In this document: positions 57,858 to 64,000 of the stretch, piece by piece
Layout of the letters: each line of letters opens with the position of its first letter
How positions within the stretch are numbered: the first letter of the stretch is position 1
Assembly (NCBI GenBank): GCA_945869695.1
Contig: CAMBPV010000002.1
Coordinates: 1 to 64,000, forward strand
DNA from: Prosthecobacter debontii
Lineage (GTDB): Bacteria > Verrucomicrobiota > Verrucomicrobiia > Verrucomicrobiales > Verrucomicrobiaceae
DNA: 64,000 nt
Direction: 5' to 3'
Made by a program: the position numbers and the translations under genes
The notes under the pieces: model-generated
Databases searched by the model: none
What the model was told of the DNA's origin: nothing
What the model saw: the letters and a program-made list of their open reading frames with translations, nothing else

Positions 57858-58706
57858 ATGAAAATGCTTCTACCCGCCGCTGTCTTCATGCTGATGGTCT
57901 CCGTCGGCATGAGTCTAAGTCCCCGACAATTGTTGGACAACTGGCGACGATTGACGCCGGCCATTTGGATGAAACTGGTGGCGGCGACTTTTCTCCTGCC
58001 GCCGCTCCTCGCTCTTTTGCTTGGGCATTTTTTGCCACTGGATGGCCCGACCACGGCGGGACTCTTTCTCGTCTCCGTGGTGCCGGGTGCGCCATTGATG
58101 ACGCGCGGAGCGGCGAAGAAGGGTTTCGATAGGCAGATCGCGGGGAGCTATCAGGTGTGGGGCGCGCTTCTGACGCCTTGGATCATTCCTCTTCTCATTT
58201 GGGGTGGTGGCTGGTTGTATGGACGGGATATTTGGGTGTCACCGATGAAGCTGGTGGGTGTGGTCGTACAGCAGCAGTTCGCTCCCCTGCTTTTAGGGAT
58301 GGCGCTGATGTGGCTGGCTCCTTCCTTTTCCATCAAGGCTCAGCGCATTCTGAATCAAGTCGGCAATGCGCTGCTCATTTTCATGCTCATCCTGGTGCTT
58401 TACAAAATGGGTCCGACCTTGGCTCAGGCGAGCCCTTGGGTGGCTTTAGCCGCGCCGATCCTCGCCATCGGCTGCATACTCGCCGTTCGTCTGCTGCTCG
58501 GTCGGGCAACACCCGTGGTTCAGACCTTGTCCATCTGTAATGCGAATCGTCACGTCGGTCTGGCTTTGCTGCTATCGGGTCAGCACATCCAGGATCAGCG
58601 GCTCATACCCGCGATCGCCGCCTATGCTCTTGCGGCCATGGCGGTCATGGGTCTCTATGCGAAGCTGGCTTCACGTGATGGGATCGAGTCAAGCCAATCA
58701 ACCTGA
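57858..58706 (+). CDS. BASS-family (bile acid:sodium symporter-like) membrane protein
   Basis: A 282-residue polytopic protein with about eight to nine spans. The N-terminus MLLPAAVFMLMVSVGMSLSPRQLLDNWRRL and the later FLVSVVPGAPLMTRGAAKKGFDRQIAGSYQ resemble the BASS/SBF family of sodium-coupled symporters; LSICNANRHVGLALLLSG matches the second half. The substrate is unknown. The ATG at 57858 is used. The DUF4239 gene follows 8 nt after its stop. Confidence 0.75.
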   Translation: MKMLLPAAVFMLMVSVGMSLSPRQLLDNWRRLTPAIWMKLVAATFLLPPLLALLLGHFLPLDGPTTAGLFLVSVVPGAPLMTRGAAKKGFDRQIAGSYQVWGALLTPWIIPLLIWGGGWLYGRDIWVSPMKLVGVVVQQQFAPLLLGMALMWLAPSFSIKAQRILNQVGNALLIFMLILVLYKMGPTLAQASPWVALAAPILAIGCILAVRLLLGRATPVVQTLSICNANRHVGLALLLSGQHIQDQRLIPAIAAYALAAMAVMGLYAKLASRDGIESSQST

Positions 58707-58714
58707 AACTTTCT

Positions 58715-59512
58715 ATGGACAAGATTCTCTCCTCAATCTTCCACAATCAATGGATGGTGATCGGTGTGGTTGGGCTGTTAATGCTCGTGCTCACTGAAAT
58801 CGGATTCCGGGCTGGATTGAAACTCTGGATCGCAAAAGACGAGGCCCGCAGAGGCCAGATCGGTGGCATCCAAGGAGCAGTTCTGGGAATGCTTGCCTTG
58901 TTACTGGGCTTTACGTTCTCCATGGCGGTGGCCCGCTACGAAAATCGACGCGACCTCGTGTTGCAGGAGGCGAACTCCATCGGCACCACTTTTCTCCGCG
59001 CATCGCTTTTGCCAGACACCCACAAGATTGCCGTCGAAGAAATGCTTCGCCGCTACGTCGATGTCCGGCTGGACTTCTACAATGCTGGAACTGAGGTCAA
59101 GAAGATTATTGAAGCCGAGAACGAGACCGCTGCCCTTCAGCGGGAGATGTGGGCACATGCCACCGCCTCCGCCAAAGAAGCGCCGACGCCGATCACGGCC
59201 ACTTTCATTGACACGCTGAATGAAACCATCGACCTCGATGCCTCCAGCCTCGCCGCGCTTCGTGCCAAAGTTCCGAGCGCCGTTTGGCTGCTCGTTCTCG
59301 TCGTTGCAGGGATCGGCTGTTGTTCCTGCGGCTATGGCGCCGGTGCCAGTGGATCACGCAGCATTTTCTCAAACGCGATGCTTCCTTTGCTCGTCGCCGT
59401 CGTGATCACTCTCATCGCCGATCTCGACCGTCCGCGACAGGGATTGGTCGGCATCAGCCAGCAACCGCTCCTCGATTTAAAGGCAAGCCTTTCGAATACC
59501 CAATCCAAATAG
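58715..59512 (+). CDS. DUF4239 (bestrophin-like) membrane protein
   Basis: A 265-residue protein with two N-terminal and two C-terminal membrane helices around a soluble domain: WMVIGVVGLLMLVLTEIGF, GMLALLLGFTFSMAVARYENRRDLVLQEANSIGTTFLRASLL (the DUF4239 signature) and DLDRPRQGLVGISQQPL near the C-terminus. The family is annotated 'bestrophin-like' by fold only; function unknown. It lies 8 nt after the BASS gene, suggesting a two-gene operon. Confidence 0.85.
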   Translation: MDKILSSIFHNQWMVIGVVGLLMLVLTEIGFRAGLKLWIAKDEARRGQIGGIQGAVLGMLALLLGFTFSMAVARYENRRDLVLQEANSIGTTFLRASLLPDTHKIAVEEMLRRYVDVRLDFYNAGTEVKKIIEAENETAALQREMWAHATASAKEAPTPITATFIDTLNETIDLDASSLAALRAKVPSAVWLLVLVVAGIGCCSCGYGAGASGSRSIFSNAMLPLLVAVVITLIADLDRPRQGLVGISQQPLLDLKASLSNTQSK

Positions 59513-59774
59513 ACACCCCTTGATGCAAGGCCCTCCGATCTCATCCGATGCAGCGCCACCGGCTCATTCGAACGCCCAAAAAGGCCAGCCGAGGCAGCGG
59601 AGACCGACCAAGTGAGCGACCAAGTCAAAGCAGCGTTCAGGTAAGGTCGAGCCCCATTTCTGATCACGGGAATTCATTGCACCATGAACCCACTTGAGGC
59701 CGGGCTGCTTCCGTGGCACTGCTCATCGATCGGAGGGCCAGCCCTTCACACACCCACCTGAATTCGAATCCATC

Positions 59775-60836
59775 GTGAAAGAAGATCTTTCCAACCCCAC
59801 TCCTCCACCGCCATCTCTCACCGGAGGGCGGGCTCGTTTTCTGGATTCGGTTTGGCTCAAGATGGCAGCCGGCATCGCGGCTTTGCTTTTTTTACTCTGG
59901 GCCTTCGGCGCGCTGTACTTTGATTTCCCTTTGGCGAAGAGTTTCGCTCCTTGGGTCTTTTTGATCGGTGTGGCGGCGATGCTATTTGTGATCCGGGGTG
60001 CCTGGAAAAAAATCGCGAGCGTCTTCGTGGCTTGTGGGATCGTGCTGGCGTGGTGGCTGACGCTGGAGCCGCGCAAAGATCGCCCTTGGCAGCCCGATGT
60101 GGCGGAGCTCGCGTGGGCGGAAGTGAAGGGCGACGAGATCACGCTGCACAACATCCGCAACTGCGACTACCGCACAGCGACGGATCTCACGCCCCGGTGG
60201 GAGAACCGGACGGTGCGGCTCTCGCAGATCACGGGCGTGGATTTGTTTGTCAACTACTGGGGCTCACCCTTGATGGCGCATCCGATTGCGAGCTTCCAGT
60301 TCGCCGATGCACTGCCCATTTGTTTCTCCATCGAGACCCGAAAGGAGGTGGGCGAAAAGTACTCAGCCATCGGAGGCATCTATCGGCAATTCGAACTGAC
60401 GTACATCGCCGCCGATGAGCGCGATGTGATCCGCCTGCGGACGAACTACCGAAAGGGCGAAGAATCCTACCTCTACCGCACGAAAGTCACACCCGAACGC
60501 GCTCGAGAGAGGTTCATGGAATACGTGAACACGCTCAATGATCTGCGCGGGCAGCCCCGCTGGTACAATGCGGTGACGACCAACTGCACCACCGCCATCC
60601 GCAGTCAGCACCCGCAGCACCAGCGCCTGCCGTGGGACTGGAGGATGCTCGTGAATGGCAAGGGAGATGAGATGCTCTTCGAGAGAAATGCTTTTTTCAC
60701 CGACGGATTGTCCTTTGCGGAACTGCGACCCAAAGCCCTGATCAACTCGGCCGCACTCGCTGCCGATGCCTCACCTGATTTCTCCAGGCTGATTCGCGTG
60801 AATCGTCCCGGTTTCTCCAGTCCTCCCGCACCTTGA
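59775..60836 (+). CDS. DUF4105 membrane protein
   Basis: A 353-residue protein from GTG 59775; TTG 59694 would add 27 residues and no Met start is well placed. Three N-terminal hydrophobic segments (AAGIAALLFLLWAFGALYF, FAPWVFLIGVAAMLFVI, VFVACGIVLAWWLTL) precede an extracytoplasmic DUF4105/Lnb-N-like domain: ELAWAEVKGDEITLHNIRN, PICFSIETRKEVGEKYSAIGG, and the TTNCTTAIR motif, whose Cys is the candidate nucleophile of this papain-like group. In other bacteria such domains accompany lipid or peptidoglycan-modifying enzymes. No other family member is near. Confidence 0.8.
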   Translation: MKEDLSNPTPPPPSLTGGRARFLDSVWLKMAAGIAALLFLLWAFGALYFDFPLAKSFAPWVFLIGVAAMLFVIRGAWKKIASVFVACGIVLAWWLTLEPRKDRPWQPDVAELAWAEVKGDEITLHNIRNCDYRTATDLTPRWENRTVRLSQITGVDLFVNYWGSPLMAHPIASFQFADALPICFSIETRKEVGEKYSAIGGIYRQFELTYIAADERDVIRLRTNYRKGEESYLYRTKVTPERARERFMEYVNTLNDLRGQPRWYNAVTTNCTTAIRSQHPQHQRLPWDWRMLVNGKGDEMLFERNAFFTDGLSFAELRPKALINSAALAADASPDFSRLIRVNRPGFSSPPAP

Positions 60837-60935: not shown

Positions 60936-60964
60936 ATGACAAATTCAACGGGACCCATTATAAA
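60936..60964 (+). promoter_or_regulatory. Sigma70-type promoter of the RiPP-like cluster
   Basis: ATGACA at 60936-60941 and TATAAA at 60959-60964, each one base from consensus, are separated by 17 nt. Initiation near 60971 gives a leader of about 65 nt before the first gene at 61036. It is the only good promoter match between 60837 and 61859. Confidence 0.5.
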
Positions 60965-61035
60965 AACAGCGTGAAGAGGATGGGTGCACAACACCGTTCC
61001 TCATTATCTCAGCCAAACTCACCTCCCCCCATACC

Positions 61036-61524
61036 ATGAACCGTCGAAATTCAATCATCACCGGGCTCACAGCGGTCACTGCCATTGCCGGCCTCACTTC
61101 CACGGCCAAGGCCGAGGATGCAGAATCCAAAAATCCTGAACTGGAGAAAATCCGGGCTTTGCTCAAGGCGCACGACGATGCCATGACCAGCCACAATATG
61201 GAGGGCGTTCTCGCCACGCTGGCTCCCAAGGCCGTCATTATCGGGTCGGGTCCAGGAGAAGTCTGGTCTGGGACGGAGGAGATTAAAGATGCTTATGAGC
61301 ATTTTTTCCAAGGTTTCGACAAGGGTCAACAAGACTTCACGTATCAATTTAAATTCGGGGAGCTCGCCACTGGGATGGGCTGGCTGATGGCGTCGGGCGA
61401 GGTCAAAGGTAAAAAAGACAACAAGGACTTCGCGTTCCCGATGAACATTTCCCTCACAGCCTCGAAGGCCAGCGGTGATTGGAAGATCGCGGCGATGCAT
61501 TTCTCGACCCTGACAGGAAAGTAA
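61036..61524 (+). CDS. Exported NTF2-like (SnoaL/DUF4440) protein
   Basis: A 162-residue protein. MNRRNSIITGLTAVTAIAGLTS carries an Arg pair ahead of the hydrophobic region and ends with a TAKA cleavage site, so export by Sec or Tat is expected. The mature part is an NTF2-like cone: LEKIRALLKAHDDAMTSHNMEGVLATLAPKAVIIGSG, VWSGTEEIKDAYEHFF and the C-terminal strand WKIAAMHFSTLTGK. Such folds bind small molecules or catalyse simple reactions. It lies 41 nt upstream of the RiPP-like precursor under the same promoter; a role in binding or processing the product is inferred from position only. Confidence 0.8.
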   Translation: MNRRNSIITGLTAVTAIAGLTSTAKAEDAESKNPELEKIRALLKAHDDAMTSHNMEGVLATLAPKAVIIGSGPGEVWSGTEEIKDAYEHFFQGFDKGQQDFTYQFKFGELATGMGWLMASGEVKGKKDNKDFAFPMNISLTASKASGDWKIAAMHFSTLTGK

Positions 61525-61565
61525 GATCGCAATTTTTCGGACCAATCTCAAACCTCTTCGATGCT

Positions 61566-61835
61566 ATGAGCGATACACCATCCAACGAAAACGTGGTTCC
61601 CCATGAGGAAGCAGAACTTCAAAACCGGAGACTCTTCCTCCAAGGCATGGGGAAGTGGTCCGGGGCGGCGATTGCCGCCGTGGTCGGAACCGTGATCGGC
61701 ACTGGGACGGAGGCGCAAGCCGGATCTTGGATCAATCGGCGAGGTGGCGGTGGTGGCTGGATCAATAGGCGGGGTGGTGGAGGTAGCTGGATCAATGGCC
61801 GGGGAATTGGCGGTTGGATCAATGGTCGTTATTAG
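61566..61835 (+). CDS. RiPP precursor with four Trp-Ile-Asn repeats and a Tat-like leader
   Basis: An 89-residue peptide from ATG 61566. Residues 1-20 are an acidic leader; residues 21-26 (RRLFLQ) match the twin-arginine motif, followed by a hydrophobic helix (AAIAAVVGTVIGTG) and an AQA cleavage site at 50-52. The rest is a Gly/Arg array with WIN at 55-57, 65-67, 75-77 and 84-86. Trp-x-Asn in tandem Gly-rich repeats is the substrate form of radical SAM cyclophane synthases (GrrA/GrrM type 'triceptides'), and such an enzyme follows at 62656. I expect cyclophane links between Trp and Asn, but this is inference. No database match was possible. Confidence 0.8.
   Translation: MSDTPSNENVVPHEEAELQNRRLFLQGMGKWSGAAIAAVVGTVIGTGTEAQAGSWINRRGGGGGWINRRGGGGSWINGRGIGGWINGRY
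61722..61835 (+). repeat. Tandem ~30-nt repeats encoding the WIN core
   Basis: Four diverged copies of a roughly 30-nt unit (three of 30 nt spacing, the last 27 nt) encode G-S/G-W-I-N-R/G-R. The codons for the three core residues keep the same order TGG-ATC-AAT in every copy, whereas the linker varies, as expected of selection on the WIN residues. Confidence 0.75.
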
Positions 61836-61858
61836 GAGCAGTATCCTGATTTCATCTC

Positions 61859-62659
61859 GTGCCTGAAAATCCTGCCGCGCCCATGGTGTTCCTTCCGGCG
61901 ACACTCGCGGAGGACTCCAGCGGTGGCCCATTTACCGTCGTCGTGCAGACGCGTGAGGAGTTCACGCATTGGCTGCGCGCTCCGAACCCAAACGCTGAAA
62001 GCATTCAAGTCGAGGGGCTGATCGGTGACCCAGAAGTCTGGGCACTTGCGGCCCAAGGGGGGATGCAAATCCCGCTGGATGTCATCCTGAGCGATCCTGC
62101 GCTGGAGTTCTCTTCTCTCTACCGGCTTGTCGATGTCCGCTTGGTGCGTGAGGTCAGGGTCAGCATTCCGACCCGGCCAGGCTTCCTGAAAGCCCTGCGG
62201 CTCGCGGCGTCTCTGCAACTGCCTGTGCGGCTTCTCCCCGGTCAGCCGAGCCCTCAGTCTTTGGTTGAGTTGAACGAGGCGGCCCATTTTTATCTTCGGG
62301 ATCCCATGGTTGAAGTTCCTGTCGAGTTTTTCCATTCGGTGTTCTCAGCCTTCCGCGGTATGGAAGAAGGCACACTTTGGACTTTTCTTGAACAGGACCC
62401 TGCCTTTTTCTGCCACGTCGACCCTGCGGGCCAAGCGCTCCACGAACCCGATTTCGTTGAGGCCCATCTTTCGGACCTTCTCAAGACGGGTGCCGAGTGT
62501 GCCACATGCCGATGGCAGCCAATCTGCGCTGGCTATTTCAAATGGCCCGATCCCGCTTATGATTGCGCGGGAGTAAAGGAACTCTTTGCCACGCTCGAAT
62601 CTGCGGCCGTTGAAATCACTCGTGATCTGGCCACCCAAGAAATTGAATCCTCCTCATGA
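61859..62659 (+). CDS. SPASM-like cluster protein lacking a radical SAM core
   Basis: A 266-residue protein placed between precursor and radical SAM enzyme. It lacks CxxxCxxC and any TIM-barrel motif. Its C-terminal third carries Cys185, Cys214, Cys217, Cys223 and Cys236 in the order C...CxxCx5C...C (AECATCRWQPICAGYFKWP), resembling the SPASM auxiliary Fe-S domain but without the usual Cys three residues after the CxxCx5C set. The N-terminal 180 residues (TREEFTHWLRAPNPNAESIQVEG, VEVPVEFFHSVFSAFRG) are unknown to me. GTG 61859 is used; ATG 61883 is possible. Its stop overlaps the next start (ATGA). Proposed partner of the maturase. Confidence 0.8.
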   Translation: MPENPAAPMVFLPATLAEDSSGGPFTVVVQTREEFTHWLRAPNPNAESIQVEGLIGDPEVWALAAQGGMQIPLDVILSDPALEFSSLYRLVDVRLVREVRVSIPTRPGFLKALRLAASLQLPVRLLPGQPSPQSLVELNEAAHFYLRDPMVEVPVEFFHSVFSAFRGMEEGTLWTFLEQDPAFFCHVDPAGQALHEPDFVEAHLSDLLKTGAECATCRWQPICAGYFKWPDPAYDCAGVKELFATLESAAVEITRDLATQEIESSS

Positions 62660-63858
62660 GCAACCGTGTTTTTAGCGTCATCCTCCTTCCCACTGCGGAG
62701 TGCAATGTGGCATGCACCTACTGCTTCGAGCACAAGGAGCCCCATCGTCTTTCGATGCTGCTAGTGCCGCTGCTCACTAAGCAACTCCTCGATCACATCG
62801 AGCACGAAGGCATCGAGGAATGCGAGATCTATTGGCAGGGTGGCGAGGCAATGATCATGGGTCCTGCGTGGTTTGTGGAAGCCGGGAAGATCATGGACGA
62901 TGCGGCCGCGGTGCGAGGTCGCCGCTTCACCCACTACCTCCAGACAAATCTCATCAGTTACTCGCCCGCCTGGAATGAAGTGCTAAAGGATATGTTTGGC
63001 GGATCGCTCGGCACCTCGATGGACTTTCCGAATCTCCACCGCAAGCTCTTCAGCGGAAGCGCGGAGGGTTACACTGCAATCTGGACGCAGCGACTCCGCG
63101 AGGCGCAGGCCGCCGGCATCGACATCGGCGTCATCGCGGTGCTTCACCAAGGCAGTATCGACGCAGGTGCCGATGCCTTTTACCGCTACTACACCGAAGA
63201 ACTTGGGCTCAAAAGTTTCCAAGTGAACACTCCGTTTCCTGGAGGACCGGCAAAAGCGGTGGAAGCGGAGTTTGACCTCGACAAAACCGCGCTGGCGAGA
63301 TTCCTCTCTGAACTTTTTGATATCTGGATGGAGCGCGGACACGCCGCAGGCATCTCGCTTGGTCCATTCGACTCACTCATCCATCACTTCACGGGTGCGC
63401 CCGCGCGACTGCCTTGCATTTGGAAAGAGAACTGCTCGAATCAATTCATCAGCGTGGATTCCAAGGGCTCTGTGGCGCAGTGTGACTGTTGGGTGACAAG
63501 CTACCCCGAGACGTTTTTTGGCAATGTCTTCCGCGATGCCGATCTCACGCAGATGCTGCGCACCAGCCCCGCAAGACGGGAGTTTATTGAGCGCCCGAAA
63601 CATCTCGTCGAGCATGAGGACTGCCTCGAGTGCCGCTTCCTTTCCATCTGCCACGGCGGATGTCCTGTGCGCACCTACAGTGCGCTGGGCACCATGCTGG
63701 CAAAGGATCCTTACTGCGAAGTTTACAAAGCCGTGTTCAGCCGCGCAGAAACCCACAGTCGTGCGCTGCTCCGCCGCCAGCCTCGGTTTACCGGTGCCAC
63801 AAAGCCGACGATTCAAACCGGTCCGGCGAGCATGACAACGGTGGCGATCCCTCGATGA
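62656..63858 (+). CDS. Radical SAM/SPASM peptide maturase (GrrM-like)
   Basis: A 400-residue radical SAM enzyme. The [4Fe-4S] site is CNVACTYC (Cys16, Cys20, Cys23), the GGE-like motif is WQGGEAM (residues 60-66), and the C-terminal SPASM domain has Cys254, Cys260, Cys276, Cys278 and the complete CxxCx5CxxxC (Cys323, 326, 332, 336) plus Cys354. This architecture is that of peptide-modifying enzymes such as GrrM/OscB, which link Trp/Phe to Asn-type residues. Its ATG overlaps the partner gene's stop by 4 nt, so the two are co-translated. Substrate is presumed to be the WIN peptide. A Thr/Ala-rich tail follows the SPASM domain. Confidence 0.92.
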   Translation: MSNRVFSVILLPTAECNVACTYCFEHKEPHRLSMLLVPLLTKQLLDHIEHEGIEECEIYWQGGEAMIMGPAWFVEAGKIMDDAAAVRGRRFTHYLQTNLISYSPAWNEVLKDMFGGSLGTSMDFPNLHRKLFSGSAEGYTAIWTQRLREAQAAGIDIGVIAVLHQGSIDAGADAFYRYYTEELGLKSFQVNTPFPGGPAKAVEAEFDLDKTALARFLSELFDIWMERGHAAGISLGPFDSLIHHFTGAPARLPCIWKENCSNQFISVDSKGSVAQCDCWVTSYPETFFGNVFRDADLTQMLRTSPARREFIERPKHLVEHEDCLECRFLSICHGGCPVRTYSALGTMLAKDPYCEVYKAVFSRAETHSRALLRRQPRFTGATKPTIQTGPASMTTVAIPR

Positions 63859-63891
63859 AGGCGAGTCATCTTCTGAAAGAGCATCCTGAAC

Positions 63892-64000
63892 ATGATGATG
63901 AGCCAAATTCAACGACGGAGTGCAATGGCAATCGCGCCGCTTCTCGTGATTCTTTGCGGCAACCTGATCAGTTGCGCCTCCAAACCAAAGCCAGCGGTCA
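63892..64000 (+). CDS. Lipoprotein, partial (continues beyond the right edge)
   Basis: From ATG 63892 (further in-frame ATGs at 63895 and 63898) the frame reads MMMSQIQRRSAMAIAPLLVI then LCGNLISCASKPKPAV and is open to the end. The LISC lipobox and hydrophobic region mark a lipoprotein signal. It follows the maturase by 33 nt and probably belongs to the cluster; in GrrA-type loci a transporter-like substrate-binding protein is sometimes found at this position, but too little is visible to say. Confidence 0.6.
   Translation, partial: MMMSQIQRRSAMAIAPLLVILCGNLISCASKPKPAV

Follow-up and report, generated by a model that had tools for sequence, protein, structure and literature searches.

In the final 3 kb of a 64,000-nucleotide stretch of Prosthecobacter debontii DNA (contig CAMBPV010000002.1, hereafter the window), four genes form one co-directional run on the forward strand (61036-63858). 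They encode an NTF2-like protein, a short Gly-rich precursor peptide with repeated W-x-N units, a partner protein with a conserved cysteine motif, and a radical S-adenosylmethionine (SAM)/SPASM maturase. The set is almost certainly a cassette for a ribosomally synthesized and post-translationally modified peptide (RiPP). We consider it probable that the W-x-N peptide is cross-linked by the adjacent maturase, likely with help from the partner, and then leaves the cytoplasm through the twin-arginine translocation (Tat) pathway. By analogy with the enzymes that make triceptides, the chemistry is likely that of a Trp-Asn cyclophane. A preliminary description of this DNA had read the run as a probable RiPP cluster with an export-type NTF2-like protein, an 89-residue precursor with four WIN triplets, and a radical SAM/SPASM enzyme with complete cluster motifs. 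All of these points held.

Precursor array and distribution of the cassette

The window precursor carries WIN at residues 55, 65, 75 and 84. Shuffling of its 37-residue core placed Asn two residues after all four Trp in 2 of 300,000 trials, so the array is not a product of chance. For the family, we read the best 120 of 725 precursor relatives. When each array is taken to begin at its first W-x-N, the arrays together contain 637 Trp residues, of which 605 stand in W-x-N; 120 of these hold by construction, and exclusion of the first units leaves 485 of 517. The 32 departures consist of 27 Trp at the last residue and five that read WGGG or WSGG. One relative without the GKW box of the leader was kept in this array count and omitted from the counts over 119 relatives. 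An alternative count in those 119, taking every Trp after the GKW box, gave 600 W-x-N of 690, and the others lie mostly in the hydrophobic stretch of the signal and at the last residue. The middle residue of the 600 units is Ile (334), Val (236), Leu (17), Ala (11) or Tyr (2). The distance from unit to unit ranges from 6 to 21 residues, and the copies per relative, in these 119, from three to eight; the loci L016 and L018 have ten. In an alignment of 57 precursor rows (window included, picked by hand for spread), W55/N57 and W65/N67 are invariant and W84/N86 nearly so. The arrays of the 120 relatives contain 40.7 percent Gly and 14.9 percent Arg. They are cationic, with a median net charge of +6.5 and acidic residues in 5 of 120. 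A short precursor with a conserved leader and a variable repeat core, and a maturase gene co-inherited with it, are the marks of a RiPP, and all are present.

With the maturase as query, 21 loci were recovered from a genome collection (L025, L026 and L029, identical copies of L005, L014 and L021, are excluded from all counts). By title, 17 belong to Verrucomicrobiota groups, two to Candidatus Eremiobacterota and one to Pyrinomonadaceae (54 percent identity), and one is entitled plainly 'bacterium'. Greedy calling of open reading frames (ORFs) took antisense frames in some loci, and the genes were therefore tallied by tblastn. NTF2-like protein, precursor, partner and maturase were found in identical order and strand in each of the 17 loci whose sequence extends upstream of the maturase start (L004-L016, L018, L019, L021 and L022, a set that differs from the 17 with Verrucomicrobiota titles). 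Among these, L012 and L013 begin within the NTF2-like gene, which the contig start truncates, and L021 and L022 stop inside the maturase. In three other loci, L017, L020 and L023, the available sequence starts within the maturase. Two further genomes (L030 and L031) also carry the four-gene set.

Among 57 genomes, that of the window being one, the maturase, the partner and the precursor profile each picked out the same six, at neighbouring places. The preliminary description had named, as a test of the RiPP reading, a search for homologues of the precursor that have no radical SAM gene beside them; there were none in the 57 genomes, and the 725 database homologues come without genomic context. 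A phylum sample, in which maturase and partner were found in the same 2 of 387 genomes (own included), adds little. The cassette is accessory and patchy, and its parts were not seen apart in this sample. Database searches found 958 partner homologues beside the 725 of the precursor. The 120 listed maturases share 73 to 97 percent identity with the window maturase; some of the 1027 maturase matches at E <= 1e-20 may be other SPASM enzymes. Named holders include Chthoniobacter flavus Ellin428 (L009) and Verrucomicrobium sp. BvORR034 (L005).

In the flanking sequence, which extends up to 8 kb and is shorter in many loci, we saw no further true neighbour family common to at least four loci, and the other ORF families that reached this number were antisense frames of cassette genes only. 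No dedicated transporter or peptidase gene recurred in these flanks, in keeping with a peptide that the general Tat and signal peptidase machinery exports and cleaves.

Some single loci deserve mention. L007 and L008 are metagenome-assembled genomes (MAGs) labelled Candidatus Eremiobacterota whose cassette maturases are about 80 percent identical to that of the window, reflecting either recent transfer or wrong labels. In the MAG of L024, a maturase remnant (L024:8001-8241, 69 percent identity) lies 3' of two ORFs that by eye resemble a dihydropyrimidine-dehydrogenase pair, and another contig of the same MAG (L017) carries most of a maturase; the remnant is a decayed second copy or an assembly joint. 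In genome G003 the sequence between partner and maturase (L030:5464-6350) lies in a long ORF with repeated His, Gln, Ser and Pro, of doubtful coding value.

Maturase and partner

We aligned 35 maturase rows, window included, picked by hand for spread; L016, whose matched stretch reads a stop, was omitted. CxxxCxxC and CxxCx5CxxxC are complete in every row, and the window maturase has the features of the SPASM class of radical SAM enzymes. Its D277 aligns with D277 of the anaerobic sulfatase-maturating enzyme (anSME), which we take to be the catalytic base of anSME. The cysteines of the SAM-binding cluster and of both auxiliary clusters (Aux I and Aux II) are invariant in the 35 rows, as is D277. 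These cysteines correspond one by one to those of anSMEcpe: C254/C260/C276/C336 of Aux I align with anSME C255/C261/C276/C330, and C323/C326/C332/C354 of Aux II with C317/C320/C326/C348 (ligand assignment of anSMEcpe from PMC5715301; this and the papers below are cited from excerpts). The radical SAM domain starts almost at once, matching DynA from residue 8, and there is no separate recognition domain.

The maturase reaches the cut-off of no specific NCBIfam family. Its best match among them is the anSME family TIGR03942, with 141.7 bits (cut-off 349.45). Then follow, with cut-offs in brackets, DynA 132.2 (450), DarW 118.6 (650), DarE 104 (650), GrrM/OscB TIGR04261 68.4 (310), YhhB 62.3 (445), AmcB 57.5 (425), XyeB 53.5 (450) and FxsB 53.4 (370). 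Judged by these scores, the maturase is an unnamed branch of SPASM enzymes. Membership in GrrM/OscB, a family against which the preliminary description had suggested a search, was rejected on score.

The partner was aligned in 70 rows, window included and likewise chosen by hand for spread. The window partner matches no Pfam or NCBIfam model at E <= 1, and none of the 70 rows matches any NCBIfam model at E 0.01, the pseudo-SAM/SPASM model TIGR04347 included. A sequence search of solved structures gave nothing convincing (best E 0.97). The predicted structure (predicted local distance difference test score, 93.7) is a whole radical SAM/SPASM fold, and its structural match to this fold stands above unrelated barrels. 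CxxxCxxC is absent from all 70 rows, and CxxCx5Cx12C (C214, C217, C223 and C236) is invariant in all of them; in a profile alignment these four cysteines fall on the Aux II ligands of the maturase. On the structural model, the partner is predicted to be a degenerate radical SAM/SPASM fold that keeps just the four Aux II ligands and is without those of Aux I. The cysteine-cluster partner of the preliminary description thus stood, but not its designation as 'SPASM-only'.

Leader, companion protein and gene layout

RRxFL precedes a GKW[S/C] box in 118 of the 119 precursor relatives and in 55 of the 57 aligned rows, where R22, F24, L25, W31, S32, A34 and A37 are invariant. The window precursor reads NRRLFLQG...AQA, as expected of a Tat signal, with the A-x-A site judged by eye only. 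The genome encodes TatC (192.4 bits). The assignment to Tat draws on the RRxFL motif and the presence of TatC, to which the Tat-signal hidden Markov model TIGR01409 (cut-off 16.7) adds weak support: 7 of the 57 rows match it at E <= 0.1, with a best value of 0.0059. From these features we predict that the precursor signal is a cleaved Tat signal, in line with the Tat-type leader of the preliminary description.

The NTF2-like protein is predicted to have an NTF2 fold. Of 16 rows aligned for it (window included, also picked by hand for spread), 15 begin with M-x-R-R, but beyond this start the signal varies more than the precursor leader and is without the W31 and S32 feature, so the GKWS box of the precursor looks like an added recognition feature. 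The structures nearest to the protein are scattered over NTF2-like proteins whose functions are various or unknown. Its role therefore stays a guess; if exported, it may bind the product outside. In the Pyrinomonadaceae MAG (L018:6182-6649) the signal of the NTF2-like protein is plain and non-twin-arginine, and the precursor there retains RR and ten W-x-N units.

Coordinates of the cassette features are collected in Table 1. The maturase gene start overlaps the partner gene stop by 4 bases.

Table 1. Features of the cassette region in window coordinates
Feature	Position	Strand	Remarks
Promoter-like ATGACA-17-TATAAA	60936..60964	+	Weak; 71 bases 5' of the NTF2-like gene; 10/12 matches
NTF2/SnoaL-like protein, 162 residues	61036..61524	+	PF13474 E 1.6e-12; twin-arginine-type N-terminus MNRRNSII...AKA
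Precursor peptide, 89 residues	61566..61835	+	725 database relatives at E <= 0.001; leader and W-x-N array conserved
Precursor leader, Tat-like signal NRRLFLQGMGKWSGAAIAA...AQA	61566..61721	+	Cleavage after residue 52 assumed
Precursor Gly-rich core, four WIN units	61722..61832	+	WIN at 61728-61736, 61758-61766, 61788-61796, 61815-61823
Partner, predicted pseudo-radical-SAM/SPASM protein, 266 residues	61859..62659	+	GTG start
Partner Cys motif CxxCx5Cx12C (C214, C217, C223, C236)	62498..62566	+	Equivalent to Aux II ligands
Radical SAM/SPASM maturase, 400 residues	62656..63858	+	NCBIfam SPASM domain TIGR04085 52.1 bits, cut-off 27
Maturase CxxxCxxC, SAM-binding cluster (C16, C20, C23)	62701..62724	+	Invariant, 35/35 rows
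Maturase SPASM region, Aux I and Aux II ligands and D277	63415..63717	+	Alignment to anSME

The promoter placed before the run by the preliminary description fared less well. The 10/12 match is present, but 13 of 500 shuffles contained an equally good one. A 10/12 match 5' of the first gene was also found in 3 of 16 other loci (L014, L019 and L021; 0, 4 and 11 of 200 shuffles were equally good in these three). The best match in the remaining 13 loci is at most 9/12, and a stricter scan found no promoter on the + strand. A conserved promoter is not claimed. The lipoprotein start at 63892, which had been counted with the cluster, is the first part of a 516-residue phospholipase-D-like protein; it does not recur beside the other four genes, and we rejected it as a cassette member. 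Upstream and outside the cassette, 59694-60836 encodes a periplasmic Lnb_N domain protein (PF13387 E 2.9e-36), and an SBF-like transporter gene followed by a bestrophin-like gene occupies 57858-59512.

Proposed mechanism, alternatives and relation to known systems

In the mechanism that we propose, a complex of maturase and partner would bind the RRxFL...GKWS leader, and the signal would serve both recognition and export. A maturase without a recognition domain and a partner in every complete locus make the partner the natural leader holder. In the bufferins, which have Sec signals, the signal peptide is regarded as belonging to the recognition sequence, and a partner that masks the signal until modification is done has been proposed (PMC12452194). 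The maturase would bond each Trp to the Asn two residues on through a C-C bond, with 2 Da lost per unit and four such units in the window peptide. For the predicted mature 37-mer, with cleavage after AQA assumed, the calculated mass would drop from 3912.976 to 3904.913 Da (2.016 Da per unit). This bond is suggested because W-x-N lies within the published substrate pattern of enzymes that form three-residue cyclophanes: XncB joins Trp C6 to C-beta of Asn or Arg, and OscB joins Trp C7 to C-beta of Asn or Asp, in each case at i and i+2 (PMC11002830). An aromatic residue at i and an acceptor at i+2, in a core beside a SPASM enzyme, characterize the triceptides and are found here.

The Aux II-type cluster of the partner may act as an electron outlet or as a structural anchor. 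Aux II has been proposed as the route by which electrons leave anSME (PMC5715301) and PapB (PMC10470005), and electron passage between two unrelated radical SAM proteins has been shown (PMC5715301, PMC10470005); the Aux II of the partner could thus be kept as an electron relay. We rate it about equally likely that the partner is a leader chaperone and its cluster purely structural. The Tat signal would suit an already rigid peptide, and the NTF2-like protein, if exported, might bind or protect the product outside. In its fullest form the proposal is that a pseudoenzyme with only Aux II holds the Tat signal as leader, feeds or drains electrons for the one-chain maturase while it closes every W-x-N, and lets the polycycle go to Tat only once it is rigid, giving quality-controlled RiPP export without its own transporter or protease. 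We offer this version tentatively and think it somewhat unlikely to hold in all its parts.

The closest competitor concerns the partner, which may be a leader-binding chaperone or Tat-signal proofreader whose cluster is structural only and outside electron flow; this is a serious possibility, to which we give less than even weight. Proofreading chaperones of Tat-exported redox enzymes provide a model for such a role. The maturase leaves no space for a recognition domain at its N-terminus, the leader keeps W31 and S32 invariant beyond the Tat motif and these are absent from the NTF2-like signal, and in the bufferins it is a complex that is proposed to mask the signal until modification is complete (PMC12452194). 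However, the four Aux II cysteines persist in all partner rows when the SAM-cluster motif persists in none, and the electron exit proposed for Aux II in PapB and anSME (PMC10470005, PMC5715301) also argues for more than a chaperone. As for the product, the maturase could act on W-x-N and make something other than a three-residue cyclophane, namely a hydroxylation, an epimerisation, an ether or an inter-unit bond. Since the enzyme belongs to no named cyclophane family, and since DarE forms both C-C and ether bonds and DynE links Trp to an Asn at i+3 (PMC9055067, PMC11002830), this reading has some ground, yet we judge it unlikely: Trp i and Asn i+2 are fixed while the unit spacing varies, which favours an intra-unit bond, and W-x-N is within the XncB/OscB pattern (PMC11002830).

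It is improbable that the peptide is exported without modification as a Gly-rich structural or surface protein, with the radical SAM genes acting elsewhere. Many unmodified structural repeats are similarly rich in Gly and Arg, so the composition of the arrays would suit this view, but W-x-N is nearly strict (the five internal exceptions and the 27 at the last residue are all that 120 arrays contain), and precursor and maturase co-occur strictly in the 57 genomes. An anaerobic sulfatase maturase beside an unrelated Gly-rich peptide can hardly be entertained. TIGR03942 is the best family match of the maturase and D277 is shared with anSME, but the score is far under the cut-off, and the same genome has a true member with 495.5 bits on another contig (G000:C160:9462-10550; L002, L032), beside a sulfatase-like ORF. 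The presence of precursor, partner and maturase in the same six genomes also speaks against a sulfatase maturase, and we rejected this assignment.

Several observations weigh against a peptide that is cross-linked by the maturase and exported by Tat. Of the maturase in L024, one of the 21 loci, only residues 295-375 are present, and the 8 kb upstream of this fragment contain no cassette. In genome G003 the gap between partner and maturase is about 0.9 kb, in contrast to the other loci, where the two genes overlap or lie within tens of bases. The profile match between partner and maturase is confined to the SPASM part (E 1.4e-4 in a single comparison, probability 52.6). The window precursor has no match to the Tat-signal model TIGR01409, and Sec export of the precursor is possible. 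The anSME of the same genome outscores the maturase against DynA (213.5 vs. 132.2) and GrrM (126.3 vs. 68.4), as well as against DarE, DarW, YhhB, AmcB, XyeB and FxsB. The scores of the maturase with cyclophane families therefore reflect general SPASM kinship and not a cyclophane placement, and its placement beside DynA was dropped.

Among known systems, the triceptides (XncB, OscB, MscB; PMC11002830) likewise have a precursor gene beside a SPASM radical SAM enzyme, with an aromatic residue at i and Asn at i+2. In contrast, the maturase described here is under the cut-off of every NCBIfam cyclophane family matched, the cassette adds a pseudo-radical-SAM partner, an NTF2-like gene and a Tat-like leader, and the bond is predicted from sequence. 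GrrM/OscB with GrrA/OscA1 (TIGR04261, TIGR04260) share a Gly-rich repeat precursor. Sixteen of the 57 precursor rows touch the GrrA model TIGR04260 weakly, and 5 of 10 relatives scanned singly match it with 17 to 23.5 bits; the window precursor has no match at E 0.1. We did not assign the precursor to GrrA/OscA1, as even the best relative is below the cut-off of 31 bits. The dynobactin and darobactin enzymes (DynA/DynE, DarE) likewise belong to the SPASM enzymes and link Trp to Asn or to other residues, and DynA and DarE are the second and fourth best named matches of the maturase. To our knowledge, dynobactin and darobactin precursors have no repeat array.

For the pairing of two proteins of radical SAM/SPASM fold, the nearest parallel is thuricin CD, where the radical SAM enzymes TrnC and TrnD form one complex and just one must do SAM chemistry (PMC12093266). 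TrnD is still an active radical SAM enzyme, according to the excerpt, whereas the partner is without CxxxCxxC and Aux I ligands. The radical SAM domain of ChlB (PDB 9gm3, 9gmc), unlike the partner, retains the SAM-cluster cysteines. In bufferins and oxazolins (PMC12452194) an export signal replaces the classical leader, and bufferins also have a partner protein of the enzyme; these systems use Sec signals, MNIO enzymes and Cys chemistry, in contrast to the Tat-like signal and radical SAM enzyme of the cassette. No title or abstract opening among those listed in the literature searches names the cassette, which may have been listed earlier in the triceptide landscape or the first cyclophane paper, and the excerpts of PMC8692599 and PMC4289311 contain nothing on it. 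The cassette is best regarded as a variant: its chemistry would be of a known kind, and for its layout, with a Tat-like leader, an Aux II-only partner and an NTF2-like companion, we found no description.

If the proposal is true, a large and unnamed maturase branch joins the few enzyme families that are known or thought to make cyclophane peptides. The role of auxiliary clusters is unsettled, and a natural split of the radical SAM fold into an active chain and an Aux II-only chain would make this role testable by mixing subunits. Native tests are possible in named holders of the cassette such as Chthoniobacter flavus Ellin428 and Verrucomicrobium sp. BvORR034. A peptide modified in the cytoplasm would reach the outside through Tat, with neither a transporter nor a protease of its own, and this would be a new route to build and export stiff multi-ring peptides.

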